From: Clostridium thermosuccinogenes
GTDB lineage: Bacteria; Bacillota; Clostridia; Acetivibrionales; DSM-5807
Length of the DNA stretch: 64,000 nucleotides
Direction: 5' to 3'
NCBI RefSeq assembly: GCF_002896855.1
Contig: NZ_CP021850.1
Coordinates: 2,257,665 to 2,321,664 of the forward strand
Below are positions 12,666 through 63,959 of the stretch, piece after piece. How positions within the stretch are numbered: the stretch's first letter is position 1; every line of letters starts with the position of its first letter. The notes under the pieces are model-generated. The model saw only the letters and a list, made by a program, of their open reading frames with translations. It ran no database searches and was not told the DNA's origin. Made by a program: the position numbers and the translations under genes.

Positions 12666-13796
12666 TTAACCCAATACGCTGAGCAACACGCCGGCCGCGA
12701 CAGCCGAGCCGATAACACCTGCCACATTCGGACCCATAGCATGCATGAGGAGAAAGTTTCCCGGATTGGCTTCCTGGCCGACCTTCTGGGAAACCCTGGC
12801 AGCCATAGGAACGGCTGAAACTCCGGCTGAACCGATAAGAGGATTCACCTTTCCTCCTGTTGCAAAGCACATCAGCTTGCCAAAAAGCACACCGCCGGCA
12901 GTACCGATAGAGAATGCTACAAGCCCCAGAGCAATGATGCCTAAAGTCTTTTTGTCCAGGAAGGCATCCCCTGTTGCCGTTGCACCAACGGAAACTCCAA
13001 GGAAGATGGTGACAATATTCATCAATTCGTTCTGTGCAGTTTTACTTATTCTTTCAACGACACCGCTTTCCCTGAAAAGATTGCCCAGCATCAGCATTCC
13101 CACAAGCGGGGCAGCATCAGGGACTATGAAGGAAACAATTATCGCTACCATGATGGGGAATATGATCTTTTCCGTTTTTGAAACAGGTCTTAACTGTTTC
13201 ATTACTATTTCCCTCTCTTTTTTGGTTGTGAGAAGCTTCATGATAGGCGGCTGTATCAAGGGAACAAGAGCCATATATGAGTATGCAGCAATGGCTATAG
13301 GACCGAGGAGATGAGGAGCGAGCTTGGAAGTAACGAATATGGCCGTCGGTCCGTCAGCTCCACCTATAATGCCTATCGCGCCGGCTTCCTGGGGAGTATA
13401 GCCTAAGGCACTGGCTCCTATGAAGGTTATGAAAATACCCAACTGGGCAGCCGCACCGAGAAGCAAGCTTTTAGGATTTGCAATCAAAGGACCGAAGTCG
13501 GTCATCGCCCCGATGCCAAGGAATATGAGGGGCGGGTATATTCCCATCTTTACTCCCTGATACAGGTAGTAAATGAGTCCACCTTCATCATAAGAGCTCA
13601 AGCCTACCACCGGCAGGTTTGCCAGGAGCATACCGAAGGATATGGGCAAAAGAAGAAGCGGCTCATATTTTCTCACGATTGCCAGGTATATAAGAAAACA
13701 GGCAATGCCGATCATGAGAAAATCCTTCCAGTTGCCCTGAACGAAGCCTGAGTTTAATATCAGATCTTTGACGGTATTAATGAATTCTGAAAGCAT
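12666..13796 (-). CDS. oadB: Na+-translocating decarboxylase beta subunit
   Basis: The membrane subunit of a biotin-dependent sodium-pumping decarboxylase (oxaloacetate, methylmalonyl-CoA or glutaconyl-CoA type), 376 aa. It shows multiple transmembrane helices and the two diagnostic ion-site regions: [20 protein letters not shown] (about 148-167) and the conserved [14 protein letters not shown] and [19 protein letters not shown] segments in the C-terminal half. It couples decarboxylation of carboxybiotin to Na+ export. ATG 13796 is preferred over TTG 13805. Only the gamma-like gene is next to it; the carboxyltransferase alpha subunit and the biotin carrier are not in this window, so which decarboxylase it serves cannot be told here. 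Confidence 0.93.
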
Positions 13797-13916
13797 ATAT
13801 AACAACCATCCTTCTAACTAAATTGTGCAAAGCTTTTTAAACATACTGTACAATTAATGCAAAACAAAAACACTTTCAGGGTATTACATGCAAAGAACAC
13901 CTGCAAGCTTAGATAC

Positions 13917-14291
13917 CTACAGCTTTGCAGCTATCTGCTCCTTTCTGCTGACGGAATTCCATACGGGAGAAATCTGGGGTATGCGCCTGTATGATTTCAC
14001 ATGTATGTTGGATTCGGAACTTCCGCCCATTGCCGCGATTACGGCAGCAGTCAATACAGCTACCAGCTCACTGTCGTCCTTTTGTTCTATGTATGCTGTT
14101 GACTCTTCAACAACATCCTTGTGAGCCTGGGGGGCCGGCATATCATTATCCTTTGTGTTCATTTTGTCTTTGCCGCCCGTCTTTCCGGCGCTTGCAATTT
14201 TTGAAAACAGTGAAATAATAGCCGATAAAAGTATCAATACGATAAAGACAACTACCATTCCCACAATAGTAAGATTAATAGCTAGTTCCAT
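13917..14291 (-). CDS. oadG: OadG-family gamma subunit of Na+-pump decarboxylase
   Basis: A 124-residue protein with one N-terminal membrane helix (about residues 5-30, LTIVGMVVVFIVLILLSAII), a polar, flexible linker (31-75) and a C-terminal segment resembling the OadG tail (VAVLTAAVIAAMGG then RRIPQISPVWNSVSRKEQI). OadG stabilises the decarboxylase complex and binds a metal near the carboxyltransferase. The start is preceded by AAAGGAGGTG. It is 120 bases upstream of oadB in the same direction and behind a strong promoter with a 240-base leader. Confidence 0.88.
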   Translation of the reverse strand: MELAINLTIVGMVVVFIVLILLSAIISLFSKIASAGKTGGKDKMNTKDNDMPAPQAHKDVVEESTAYIEQKDDSELVAVLTAAVIAAMGGSSESNIHVKSYRRIPQISPVWNSVSRKEQIAAKL

Positions 14292-57976: not shown

Positions 57977-59332
57977 TTATGCCTCCTCATATAGGACATC
58001 AATTTTTATGTCCCGGCGCTGGATAAAGATAGATGCAATGGATACAATATCTCTAACATACTTTCTTGCTCCCCCGCCACCTGCTGGGCCATTCAAATAA
58101 AGTGATTCTACTTCATTCCCAACTATTTCAGCATCAGTTTTACAGCTCGTCCTGGCCGCCACCCTGAGCCTTACTTCTGGAAAATCATTCTTTCCATGAG
58201 CCAGATACATGCCCAGTGTATCCTGATAAAGGGAGTTCAAACCTATATAGTCAATTCTGAGCTCATCCAAGGGCACTTTAAGATATTCCAGCCTTTTTTT
58301 AATGATTTCTCCTGCTAATCGTGCTCTTTCCAAAGCTCCCGGGCCACCGTAACTTATCTCCCCTTCCCCGATGTAGCAATCCTTGTATCCGATGCTCACC
58401 TTATATAGTCCATTTCCTTTCCTTCCCGTAGCTCCTTGAACCAGCACCTTATTTTTGGCAATTTCTTTTACTTCTACCTGAGAATAATCAGCAATTCCAT
58501 CAGGAGTTATATAGCTTGATGGATTATGTATTTCATATAATATTTGTTCTTTACAGATAGATGGAGTAACCATTCCTCCTGTCCCTTCAAGCTTGGTTAC
58601 AACAATTTCTCCTTCCTTGCTGATCTCAGCAATAGGAAATCCTATATTCCATAATTCCGGAACATCCTTGTAGCCAGGATCTGCAAAGTAACCTCCCGTT
58701 ATTTGGGATGAACACTCCAGCAGGTGGCCTGCAAGTATTCCTTTGCCTATCAGGTCATAACAATCCTTTGCCCATCCAAACTCATACATAATGGGTCCCA
58801 AAAATAAAGACGGATCTGCGATTCTGCCTCCAATAACAATATCAGCACCATGCTGCAAGGCCTCTACAATTCCATCAGCTCCAATATACGCGTTGGCAGA
58901 TATTATTTTTGGGTATATAGTCGATAGCTTTTCACCTGTCTCCAATAAAGGATAATTCAAATATTTGTCAATACAATCTAAAATATCATCTCCTATGATG
59001 ACAGCAATTTTTAAACCTTTTATCCCCATATCTGAAGCCATTCTTTTAATGACCCTTGCAGCTGCAATTGGGTTAGCAGCACCCATGTTGGTTATAATCT
59101 TCACCTTATTCCTGAAACACGCCGGTAAAACTTTTTCCATTCTATATTCCAATAAATCGTTATATCCTTTGTCAGGGTCTTCAAGCTTCTGTAGCTGAGC
59201 CAGAGCTATGGTTCTTTCTGCTAAGCATTCAAATACTATATAATCTAAATTTCCATATTCAATCAGATCAAGAGCAGGCTCTATTCTATCTCCCGCATAG
59301 CCTGCACCTGACCCAATTCTTATAGTCTCCAA
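57977..59332 (-). CDS. AtuA-family protein (DUF1446)
   Basis: A 451-residue protein of the AtuA/DUF1446 family, first known from the acyclic terpene utilization cluster of Pseudomonas; the biochemical activity is still poorly defined. Supportive segments: IRIGSGAGYAGDRIEPAL (start), YIVFECLAERTIALAQLQ (about 31-48), TNMGAANPIAAARVIKRMA (about 80-98), ADIVIGGRIADPSLFLGP (about 160-177) and LNGPAGGGGARKYVRDIVS near the end. TTG start with GGAGG 7 bases upstream. It pairs with the C-terminal-domain gene. Confidence 0.9.
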   Translation of the reverse strand: METIRIGSGAGYAGDRIEPALDLIEYGNLDYIVFECLAERTIALAQLQKLEDPDKGYNDLLEYRMEKVLPACFRNKVKIITNMGAANPIAAARVIKRMASDMGIKGLKIAVIIGDDILDCIDKYLNYPLLETGEKLSTIYPKIISANAYIGADGIVEALQHGADIVIGGRIADPSLFLGPIMYEFGWAKDCYDLIGKGILAGHLLECSSQITGGYFADPGYKDVPELWNIGFPIAEISKEGEIVVTKLEGTGGMVTPSICKEQILYEIHNPSSYITPDGIADYSQVEVKEIAKNKVLVQGATGRKGNGLYKVSIGYKDCYIGEGEISYGGPGALERARLAGEIIKKRLEYLKVPLDELRIDYIGLNSLYQDTLGMYLAHGKNDFPEVRLRVAARTSCKTDAEIVGNEVESLYLNGPAGGGGARKYVRDIVSIASIFIQRRDIKIDVLYEEA

Positions 59333-59508
59333 AAAAATACCTCCAGATGTTGATTATTTCTATCTAAGACTTAACATTGCAAGCTATCTATGTGTTTGAA
59401 AACGCATAGACAGCCCATAAAACTACCATGAACCCATCACTGTTGGATGATAAAGCCGCAATGTGTATGTAGACTACAATAGAAGATCAAGTTTAAATAA
59501 TTATATTA

Positions 59509-60339
59509 CTATTTGGATTTTTCATAAATGAAAGATGCCTTTTTATATTGTGCACGCTCTAAAACACCATGCTTTCCAAACACACCATCCGGTACAGAAG
59601 GTGGAAAACCAAATCCGGCCAGATCTGGCATTATATTAGCTCGATCTTCCAAAATGGCTTCTGAAAGCCCAATAAAGTCATCCAGATAGGATGGATGCAA
59701 CTGCGGTCCATTATGGGCAGGATAGATGGTATCGAACTCTTCAGCCCGTTTTTTCAGTTTCCGCATGTTTTGTAAATGTGATGACACTACCTCTTTATAG
59801 GGCAATGGCTGATTCCGTACAAATAATAGTACCTGACCTGCTTCCAGTTCATCACCTGTATACAATGCTCTATTATCCCTATCCAACAGGGCTATACTGC
59901 TTTCATGGTGAGCTGGTATTTCAATGACTTCCACCTTGCGCTGGCCCAAATCAAATACATGCCCCTCCCTGACCGTATTTACTTTGTAGTCTGGATATGG
60001 TCTGCTGTTGTGAATCTGTTGCATTTCATCGGTAAATGCCTTTTTCATAGTTTTTTCAGCACCTGGTCCTGCATAAACTGTATCCCACCATGGATTGCCC
60101 CCAGTGTGATCATAATGCCCATGGGAATTGACCACGATTATAGGCTTGTCAGTGATTTCCTCTACAAATGCACGTATATTTCCGACCCCATATGCTGTAT
60201 CAAACAGCAATGCCTGCTCCGTGCCTATCATAAGATAACAATGCACATTGCCAAAGGATATGGTGTATGTTCCTGGTGCTGTCATCCACTTGCCGTAAAT
60301 GAAACCTTGCTCATTGATGTTCTCATTTCTAAAATTCAT
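59509..60339 (-). CDS. MBL-fold metallo-hydrolase
   Basis: A 276-residue metallo-beta-lactamase-fold hydrolase. Metal site: VVNSHGHYDHTGGNPWWD (about 70-87; HxHxDH), second-site residues in YTGDELEAGQ (about 158) and YPAHNGPQLHPSYL (about 200). Such proteins hydrolyse thioesters, lactones or similar bonds; with the CocE-type and AtuA-type genes this might be a small-molecule catabolic module. ATG 60339 has AAAGGAG upstream. Confidence 0.9.
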   Translation of the reverse strand: MNFRNENINEQGFIYGKWMTAPGTYTISFGNVHCYLMIGTEQALLFDTAYGVGNIRAFVEEITDKPIIVVNSHGHYDHTGGNPWWDTVYAGPGAEKTMKKAFTDEMQQIHNSRPYPDYKVNTVREGHVFDLGQRKVEVIEIPAHHESSIALLDRDNRALYTGDELEAGQVLLFVRNQPLPYKEVVSSHLQNMRKLKKRAEEFDTIYPAHNGPQLHPSYLDDFIGLSEAILEDRANIMPDLAGFGFPPSVPDGVFGKHGVLERAQYKKASFIYEKSK

Positions 60340-60429
60340 GGTTTTGCTCCTTTCTACTGTTATTTTGTAATAAAATTGATATGCATTATATATAAGGGTT
60401 TTCAATGTCATAATCGTCGTTCCGTTTAA

Positions 60430-60908: not shown

Positions 60909-61090
60909 GTATTTTAGTATATCAATAATATACTGTTATTGTCAATAATTAGAAGTAAAATTCCGATTAGTAGAAATGTTTGCATTGGTGTGTAATATAC
61001 TTCCTTGCCTTTTCTGACGATAGTAACTATAATTACTGTATTACAAGCATTTAATTATGCCTGCAGGTTGCTTTGAATGGAGGTTTAATA

Positions 61091-62119
61091 TTGGCTACTA
61101 TAAAGGATATTGCTAAGCATGCGGGAGTGTCTCCAAGTACTGTGTCCATTGTACTTAACGGGCAAGCTGATGTAAGAAAAATATCAGCAAAAACTCAAAA
61201 GAAAGTATGGGCTGCCATAAGGGCTCTTGAGTACCAACCCAACATACCAGCACGGCGTTTGCGTGGAGATTCCCAGTCTAAAACCTTGGTTATTGCTGTT
61301 TTCTGGGCTTCGGATTTCAGAGCTCATATGGTATTGCGCTTTCTACGAGGCTTACAGGATGAAATTTTGCAATCAAATCGTGAATGTGAAATCATTATTC
61401 ATCCATATAAAAACAATGAATTATGCAACATTACATCTTTGCGATCAATGAATATGTATAATGCTGCTATTATTTGCAATGCTTCTTCAAAAGATCTGGA
61501 ATATTTAGAAAGCTGTAACTTTAACATACCCATTATCCTTTATAATCGGCACTCCCAAAAATACTGCACTGTGAATGTGGATGACGTCAAACTAGGCAGT
61601 ATACCAGCTCAGGTGTTTGCGTCCCGAGGCCATCGAAAAGCGGCCATTATTACCTCTCAACCCGTTTTTTCAGGTATGGAGGTGCGTATTGAAAGTTTTA
61701 TATCTACTGCTACCAAACATAATTTAGAAATTGTAGACGTCATTTATGAAGATAATTCTATGCCGGGAGGATTTTCAGCAGCAAAACGGTTGCTTGATCT
61801 TGAAGTTAAACCCGATTGTCTGTTTTGTGCTTCAGATGCTATGGCCATTGGAGCATTGCGCTGCGTACATAAATCAGGTATCATTATTCCTGACGATCTG
61901 GAATTGATTAGTATAGGAAATGGCGACATGGATCTTGAGGAATATGCTACTACATCTCTCTCAGTAGTTCACCTGCCTATGGAGAAGATGGCCGAAACCT
62001 GTCTTAGATTAGTCTTTGATGTACTTAACCATAGAATAGAACCTCCTCACTCCATTGAGCTACCTGTTCACTACATAGCGCGGGAAAGCTGCGGCGAAAT
62101 GAATATTGACGAAGGATAA
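61091..62119 (+). CDS. LacI-family transcriptional regulator (second)
   Basis: A 342-residue LacI/GalR regulator. The HTH is ATIKDIAKHAGVSPSTVSIV (residues 2-21) with VLNGQADVRKIS following, then the sugar-binding core. The start is the TTG at 61091 with GGAGG 7 bases upstream; an upstream TTG (61073) overlaps that ribosome site and is less likely. Divergent from the MBL/AtuA/CocE/GH3 gene row, which it may control through the 60882-60908 sites. Confidence 0.92.
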   Translation: MATIKDIAKHAGVSPSTVSIVLNGQADVRKISAKTQKKVWAAIRALEYQPNIPARRLRGDSQSKTLVIAVFWASDFRAHMVLRFLRGLQDEILQSNRECEIIIHPYKNNELCNITSLRSMNMYNAAIICNASSKDLEYLESCNFNIPIILYNRHSQKYCTVNVDDVKLGSIPAQVFASRGHRKAAIITSQPVFSGMEVRIESFISTATKHNLEIVDVIYEDNSMPGGFSAAKRLLDLEVKPDCLFCASDAMAIGALRCVHKSGIIIPDDLELISIGNGDMDLEEYATTSLSVVHLPMEKMAETCLRLVFDVLNHRIEPPHSIELPVHYIARESCGEMNIDEG

Positions 62120-62187
62120 GGGAAAGTAACGCATAGACCAAAAATCTATTTAATATGCAGCAAAATCTATGCAGAAAAATCATCCGA

Positions 62188-62481
62188 TTAAGCTCTACGC
62201 CTATTTTCCGGATTTTTAGCCAAAAGCAAATATATAACTCCCAAAATCGCTAACACTGCAAAAACAATCGTAAACCAAGGAGAAGAGGTTCTTTCTGCCA
62301 AGTAAACTGCCGTTGGTCCATCTGCGCCACCTATAATTCCCACTGAAACCGAATTGGTCACATCATTAATAAATTTGTGAGACAGATATAATGGCAATAT
62401 ATAAGTAAGAAAAACGCTGATAACCGCTACCAAAGCGCATATAACAGTCAATAGCTTAATTACCTTGTTAAAATTGATCAT
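62188..62481 (-). CDS. Miniature OadB-like membrane protein
   Basis: A 97-residue protein with two membrane helices (about 10-30 and 70-89) around a segment [20 protein letters not shown] (about 46-65), the ion-binding signature of the beta subunit of Na+-pumping decarboxylases, also seen in the full-length oadB at 12666. It lacks all other OadB helices but has a GAGGTG ribosome site and an intact frame, so it does not look like debris. Stand-alone proteins of this kind occur in Clostridia, mostly misannotated as OadB fragments. The function is unknown. Confidence 0.82.
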   Translation of the reverse strand: MINFNKVIKLLTVICALVAVISVFLTYILPLYLSHKFINDVTNSVSVGIIGGADGPTAVYLAERTSSPWFTIVFAVLAILGVIYLLLAKNPENRRRA

Positions 62482-62897
62482 TTTTCTTCACCTCAATATA
62501 ATTATTTATTAAATCATAATGCTGAAAATCGATGTTTTAATACTTTTTTCAATGAATTCATTTTTGCCGGTACGTTGCAGCTTATAAAAATATCATTTGA
62601 GTATCAAGCATTTCATGATTTTGTTACCGCTTACTACAAATTTACAAATATGTATTTTTATTTTATTACGCAATATATTTGACAATACCTCTTCATTATT
62701 TTAACATGAATTTTATGAGTGTACAAAGATAATATCAAAATACCTATTGTATCCAAACACTGCCCTGATTAGTGTGAAAAAGCAATGAAACTCATTTTAG
62801 TACTGATGGTAGGAATAATGAGAAACATTACCTGTATAATTAACACGCATAATTCTATCACAATGAAACTTTATATAAATATCTCTTTTCTATATCA
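62482..62897. other. AT-rich intergenic, nothing identified
   Basis: 416 bases with no supported gene or RNA; the left end carries promoter sequence for the OadB-like gene. Confidence 0.4.
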
Positions 62898-63959
62898 CTA
62901 CCTAATGCTTTGCAGACCGGATTTCATAGCTAAATACCTAAGAAACGGATTATACATAGCAGGGGATTTCATGTTTTTAATAAGTAAATTTAATTTAATA
63001 CCCTTTACTTTCTGCTCATACCTTTCCAAAAATCCATCTATGCCCACCTCAAGGCTTTGAGCCAAGTATAAGGAGCTTTTCAATGCGTAGCTGATTCCTT
63101 CCGCAGAGCTGGGACTGATTGCGCCTGCATCCTCTCCCACTAGAGCTATACAATCCCTTCCGGTATAAAACTGTGATAATCTCTTTGGCCTATAGATATG
63201 TGCTCCTTCTGTTTTTACTTTGCTATCAAAATTAAAGCCTAACTTTGCCAGCTTTGCTTTCAACCTGTTATACCTTTCCCAAGGGCCGTCTTTGGGGCTA
63301 AGGGCAGACCCTAATAAGAGATATTTCTCCTTGGGTATGATCCAGGAGTAGAAATCGCTTATTTCCTCATCAAAAATCGCTGTGAAATAAGGTACGGTAT
63401 TTGAGCATTCAAACCATTCCTGAATTGCAATGTATTGTTTAGGAGTGCTTATGCCTTTGTCCAAATTCCTTCTTATCTTTGAGAGAGCCCCATCAGCACC
63501 TACAATAATCCTTGTCTTTGCAGACATCTCTCGTCCGTTATGCGAATATCTTACTTCATATCCTCCCGGTATTTCAGTAAAGCTTCTAAAAAAGGAGTTA
63601 AACTTTTTGTCAACACTGGTGGGAATAATGGAAACCATCCATTTATCAAATTTTTCCCTATCCATATTGTAATAGAATCTCTGGTACAGCCTTTCCAGGT
63701 TGTTGGTTAAATCAATAGTTCTCACAGCAAAAAGCTGCGGGTTGACCAAAATATCCTTTGGTATGCCTAAGCCCAGCTTCGCAATCATTTTCTGAGCATC
63801 CGGGGCCAATAGTCCCCCGCAGCATTTGATTGCATGGTTTTGGGGATTTTCATTTTCCAGATCGCGTTTATCAATCAATAAAACCTTATACTTGCTTCCT
63901 ATTAAACGTGCCAGGTTGGACCCCGCCGGGCCTGCACCCACAATGACAATATCATACAT
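62898..63959 (-). CDS. Geranylgeranyl reductase-family FAD oxidoreductase
   Basis: A 353-residue FAD-dependent oxidoreductase of the geranylgeranyl-reductase/CbrA-like group. FAD-binding: MYDIVIVGAGPAGSNLARLI (residues 1-20), the GxGxxG with the following LLIDKRD; a second conserved piece IIVGADGALSKIRRNL (about 151-166); and ALVGEDAGAISPSSAEGISY (about 271-290), the GD motif with the ribityl-binding Asp. Such enzymes reduce prenyl double bonds or other hydrophobic substrates; which one is not clear here. The last gene of the window, complete on the minus strand. Confidence 0.9.
   Translation of the reverse strand: MYDIVIVGAGPAGSNLARLIGSKYKVLLIDKRDLENENPQNHAIKCCGGLLAPDAQKMIAKLGLGIPKDILVNPQLFAVRTIDLTNNLERLYQRFYYNMDREKFDKWMVSIIPTSVDKKFNSFFRSFTEIPGGYEVRYSHNGREMSAKTRIIVGADGALSKIRRNLDKGISTPKQYIAIQEWFECSNTVPYFTAIFDEEISDFYSWIIPKEKYLLLGSALSPKDGPWERYNRLKAKLAKLGFNFDSKVKTEGAHIYRPKRLSQFYTGRDCIALVGEDAGAISPSSAEGISYALKSSLYLAQSLEVGIDGFLERYEQKVKGIKLNLLIKNMKSPAMYNPFLRYLAMKSGLQSIR

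Follow-up and report, generated by a model that had tools for sequence, protein, structure and literature searches.

The window analysed here, a 64,000-nucleotide stretch of the Clostridium thermosuccinogenes genome, contains a coding sequence for 97 residues on the minus strand (62188-62481), taken from the list of open reading frames with an ATG start and preceded by a ribosome-binding site, GAGGTG, which was read from the sequence 7 nt 5' of the ATG (62489-62494, minus). Hydropathy places one transmembrane (TM) segment at about residues 8-30 (62392-62460, minus) and a second at about residues 68-88 (62218-62280, minus), the latter followed by a basic tail. An AlphaFold model (mean pLDDT 60.5), whose low confidence made it unfit for a fold search, has corresponding helices at 4-43 and 68-89 with the motif between them disordered. 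That loop, predicted from hydropathy to be extracytoplasmic, holds the segment which we call the module (residues 44-64; 62290-62352, minus), its boundaries being set by a profile of all carriers described below. The core of the module is GGADGPT (residues 51-57; 62311-62331, minus), and the 11-residue signature of OadB, the beta subunit of sodium-pump decarboxylases, is intact at residues 48-58. The original prediction was of an intact, two-helix gene with its own ribosome site about 49 kb from a full-length oadB; the reading frame, GAGGTG and both TM segments were all found, and the distance was measured as 48.4 kb.

The full-length oadB (12666-13805, minus; PF03977, E 3e-166; solved relative 6iva/6iww) is the window's second module-containing gene and is adjoined by an oadG-like gamma subunit gene (13917-14291, minus; PF04277). 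There is no alpha subunit gene adjacent to this pair, the sole PYC_OADA-domain protein of the genome being encoded approximately 0.6 Mb away (L233, G000:C1:1667841). The same genome encodes a second full-length OadB in which GAADGPT replaces GGADGPT (L036, G000:C1:1954836, plus), and a 350-residue protein with GGASGPT as its module, which belongs to an unrelated carrier cluster (L038, G000:C1:2695786, minus). The gene for the 97-residue protein is not linked to oad genes; its neighbours are a convergent gene for a LacI-type regulator (61073-62119, plus) and, upstream, one for an FAD-binding protein (62898-63959, minus), neither of which recurs in relatives. No RNA family was found by an Rfam scan of 62000-63000, PADLOC gave no defence match, and PHROGs returned a weak match to one family of unknown function and nothing else.

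The likeness to OadB is confined to the module. A profile-profile alignment (hhalign) of the 97-residue family with OadB covered 37 columns at E=1.3e-13, and this fell to E=0.41 when the module was masked. Residues 44-64 match the tip of the H1 hairpin of OadB (PF03977, TIGR01109; 6iva, 6iww), including the aspartate equivalent to Asp203, but unlike OadB the protein has neither scaffold nor core domain and its TM segments are not detectably homologous. In the solved pump, Asp203 of H1 acts with Ser382 and Asn412 of other elements in Na+ binding (PMC7274780); equivalents of these two residues and the H2 hairpin are absent from the 97-residue protein, which has two TM segments and does not resemble this portion of OadB. 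Because the alignment vanishes once the module is masked, and with Ser382 and Asn412 absent, a miniature OadB is not supported. The ion-channel or pump role previously suggested for such a protein fared no better, as there is no detectable similarity to OadB beyond the approximately 21-residue module and the same module occurs in lipoproteins, rhodanese-like, PepSY and other proteins unable to form an ion path; an ion-site role for the 97-residue protein is possible but has little support. The OadG-related small subunits (TIGR01195, NF040909) are also small membrane proteins and are tied by name to sodium-pump decarboxylases, but OadG gave no match for the 97-residue protein.

Relatives of the protein were sought in 391 Clostridia genomes. 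Matches at E<=1e-9 were found in 14, of which three were set aside as OadB-sized frames or interrupted OadB, leaving 11 genomes with family members. These are spread over several GTDB families, and most copies are without frameshift; copies in Lutispora (L004) and in one further genome (G054) are frameshifted, and the other main copies read through. Outside the module, comparison of the window gene with a relative (L001) gave a dN of 0.35 and a dS of 1.13, and within the family dN is lower than dS both inside and outside the module. The earlier view that the gene is not decaying is therefore upheld, the proposed check for purifying selection having returned a dN/dS well below 1, and these comparisons support a gene that is intact and under selection. 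Decay of a fragment from a duplicated oadB would account for the frameshifted copies in Lutispora and G054, but with most copies intact across families, dN below dS and no OadB homology beyond the module, we regard it as extremely improbable. Members recovered by similarity, and not by the motif, keep DGPT though GGA drifts, as in SSDGPT (L078) and IDGPDGPT (L225).

An intact paralogue, 60% identical, is present in the same genome (G000:C1:613550). It lies in a segment (L102, G000:C1:605600-621600) which encodes an actin-like partition protein, a CHC2-type primase and SpoVS, and in which the gene for a 171-186 residue protein of unknown kind precedes the 97-residue-type gene. The segment, common to Clostridium sp. 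N3C, C. homopropionicum, Lutispora, G278 and G054, is probably a mobile element. Apart from this mobile-element subgroup, the check for linkage that had been proposed found no conserved neighbour gene in relatives, and plasmid and phage collections held no match to the 97-residue protein.

The module is by no means restricted to this family. The motif pattern was present in 275 of the 391 Clostridia genomes against 2 for a reversed control pattern, and is thus not a product of chance. We distinguished 154 GGADGPT contexts, 79 in OadB and 75 elsewhere, four of the latter looking like chance. The 69 non-OadB carrier proteins form 35 clusters which are mutually unrelated once the motif is masked, and in which the module is found at N-termini, at C-termini or in loops. 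Their domains include rhodanese, Big_14, Cu_amine_oxidN1, SBP_bac_3 with SLH, HAAS, PlsY (glycerol-3-phosphate acyltransferase), LspA (signal peptidase II), PPIC rotamase, PAP2 and PepSY, alongside mini single-helix proteins and free-standing carriers of 48-60 residues; OAD_beta aligns to the module segment of these proteins and to little else. As several singleton carriers come from metagenome assemblies with uncertain start codons, the pattern should be taken from the whole set and not from PlsY or LspA. Genes neighbouring the carriers do not account for them, there being no recurrent neighbour except PadR beside the HAAS carriers and the mobile-element set. A 23-residue module gave no match on plasmids, while in IMG/VR there were 11 matching stretches in 2.9 million contigs, some by chance; with so few matches, the module is not a phage trait. 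Outside Clostridia it is known from single loci (Prevotella, L029).

Around GGADGPT, the residue information of the carriers rises at position -7 and drops after +13, whereas OadB is conserved further out. The 97-residue protein follows the carriers, being conserved from -7 to +13 and unrelated to OadB in the remainder. By sequence comparison it is shown to be one carrier of a portable module of approximately 21 residues equivalent to the H1-hairpin tip of OadB, and we hold this reading, with a portable module under selection and no miniature OadB, to be very probable. Most loci were gathered by an exact motif pattern, which makes the seven core residues invariant by construction; carriers and OadB also have in common the upstream context EA[AG]S.

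Third codon positions in the module are near-random and carry little information while the residues are conserved, thus indicating selection on the peptide. This bears on a further explanation, in which a mobile DNA mini-element inserts in frame into many genes and has no function at the peptide level, as the broad scatter over unrelated genes and the presence of one 97-residue subfamily on a mobile element might suggest. Besides the codon pattern, the loci have no similarity beyond the module and orthologous carriers keep the motif though otherwise diverged, so that such an element appears very improbable. Nor are the carriers recent copies: their codons match the resident OadB at 0.41 and foreign OadBs of similar GC at 0.35 (p 0.015), a value near the foreign level with a small excess such as shared codon usage would give, and recent copying from the resident OadB was ruled out on this basis. 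When the aspartate codon was opened to codons starting with C, G or T, one non-Asp residue appeared among approximately 150 matches listed. Relatives of two clusters without TM segments swap the aspartate for cysteine or serine (GGACGPT, GGSCGPT, GGASGPT) or have an eroded motif, and these variants weaken the case for a Na+ site as the universal function of the module.

Most copies of the module are predicted to lie outside the cell, close to the membrane. Hydropathy and charge rules place it after a signal or TM segment, after a lipobox, between TM segments or before one in 61 of 71 carriers, the predicted classes being 10 lipoproteins, 26 loops between TM segments, 11 N-termini before a TM segment and 14 positions after a signal or TM segment. 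Charge bias mostly agrees with an outside location, and the predicted distance to the next TM segment is often 12-14 residues. In the 10 lipoprotein carriers GGADGPT sits 6-10 residues from the cysteine; three lipoproteins with a rhodanese domain have the module directly after the lipid cysteine (L173, L184 and L186). In the three ABC-permease-like carriers (L008, L015, L021) the module is far past the last called TM segment. Two carrier clusters, of about 220 and 340 residues, have neither TM segment nor signal and look cytosolic, and an outer-face position as a universal rule was rejected on their account.

The mini carriers, with a short motif, one TM segment and a basic tail, are in this respect like the LPXTG and PGF-CTERM sorting signals, and one of them (L033) exceeds the TIGR01167 cut-off. 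Unlike those signals, however, the module lacks LPXTG and can also occupy an N-terminus, follow a lipobox or lie between two TM segments; in the 97-residue protein there is no LPXTG and no NCBIfam anchor match above cut-off. A small exported protein carries three tandem modules (GGADGPTQIYT) at a spacing of 26 residues (L169:1476-1772, minus; also L180). This arrangement, together with the free-standing carriers, is what would be expected if the module were an extracellular peptide, released or multivalent, serving as a signal, ligand or adhesive epitope and supplied by diverse precursors. That reading is unlikely, since in many carriers the module lies between two TM segments or tethers a folded domain, and no processing site is evident.

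The occurrence of carriers follows that of OadB. Comparison of two tables showed the motif in none of 99 sampled genomes (of the 391) without an OAD_beta match, and carriers without a full-length OadB were confined to two incomplete genomes, G071 (75%) and G220 (80%). Among high-quality genomes, carriers were present in at least 24 of 224 with OadB and in none of 94 without (Fisher p 2.5e-4, relatedness ignored), 24 being a lower bound since part of the OadB-containing genomes was inspected. The co-occurrence could reflect a functional link, or else derivation of the module from OadB. It is also in keeping with the original prediction, taken as a protein that modulates or assists the OadB pump and in which the H1 tip would sense sodium or bind the pump; nearly all intact modules retain the Na+-binding aspartate of OadB, and the module of the window protein lies between two TM helices. 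However, the module is also present in lipoproteins with soluble domains and in secreted proteins, the Na+ sites of OadB also require Ser382 and Asn412 (PMC7274780), and the window family has no linkage to oad genes and TM segments unlike those of OadB; we therefore think a pump modulator improbable. Ion binding is possible for the TM carriers, yet it fails to explain the rhodanese or PepSY lipoproteins, and the module alone would provide no ion path.

A linear recognition peptide outside the membrane is the most economical account, and we offer it with modest confidence. The two TM helices of the 97-residue protein would expose the module on an extracytoplasmic loop, approximately 13 residues from the second helix, and a common partner at the outer surface of the membrane may recognise it or dock on it; this putative partner would in turn be tied, functionally or historically, to cells with the OadB sodium pump. 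As neither a partner protein nor a recurrent neighbour was found, this mechanism is an inference and should be considered with caution. Taken as a whole, a portable module with the H1-tip sequence of OadB serving as an outer-surface recognition or docking peptide, with a functional or historical tie to OadB, is the best explanation that we have, though held at somewhat less than even confidence, and the docking mechanism in particular is a little more tentative. A wider proposal, that in OadB-bearing Clostridia a segment from the core of a sodium pump has turned into a general outer-surface docking or signalling tag, and that its partner connects the pump or its energy state with lipoproteins, small membrane proteins and signalling proteins, is possible but doubtful. 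It could instead be supposed that unrelated proteins arrived independently at a stable hairpin or turn and have no partner in common, and a generic hairpin would presumably be served by an Asp-Gly-Pro turn between hydrophobic residues; with at least seven common residues and EA[AG]S, identical to OadB, in 35 clusters, the likeness goes far beyond what such a hairpin needs, and convergence is less likely still than a pump modulator or a released peptide.

To our knowledge, no named system is built on such a portable module. In the literature searched, which had most subscription journals outside its scope, GGADGPT and its substrings were not found and PF03977 was mentioned only in two papers, on transporter-fold evolution. 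The portable-module phenomenon looks undescribed, and the 97-residue protein represents one carrier family of it. The peptide, long taken for a sodium-site signature, is under selection in dozens of proteins unable to pump ions. The carriers come from gut and anaerobic Clostridia and are mostly predicted to face outwards; were the docking tag true, many gut anaerobes would have an undescribed recognition system at their surface.

There is also a consequence for annotation, whatever the mechanism. The 97-residue protein scores 37.5 bits against Pfam OAD_beta (PF03977; gathering score 31.6), as against 32.1 bits for NCBIfam TIGR01109 with its cut-off of 190.6, and the Pfam threshold is passed at 35-37 bits by matches over little beyond the module (the window protein and L023, L053 and L194). 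Since a module-sized match suffices, proteins can be misnamed sodium-pump subunits, and annotations need correction. Elsewhere in the window (57977-60411, minus), the gene for an AtuA-type acyclic terpene utilisation protein adjoins that for a hydrolase of the metallo-beta-lactamase fold.
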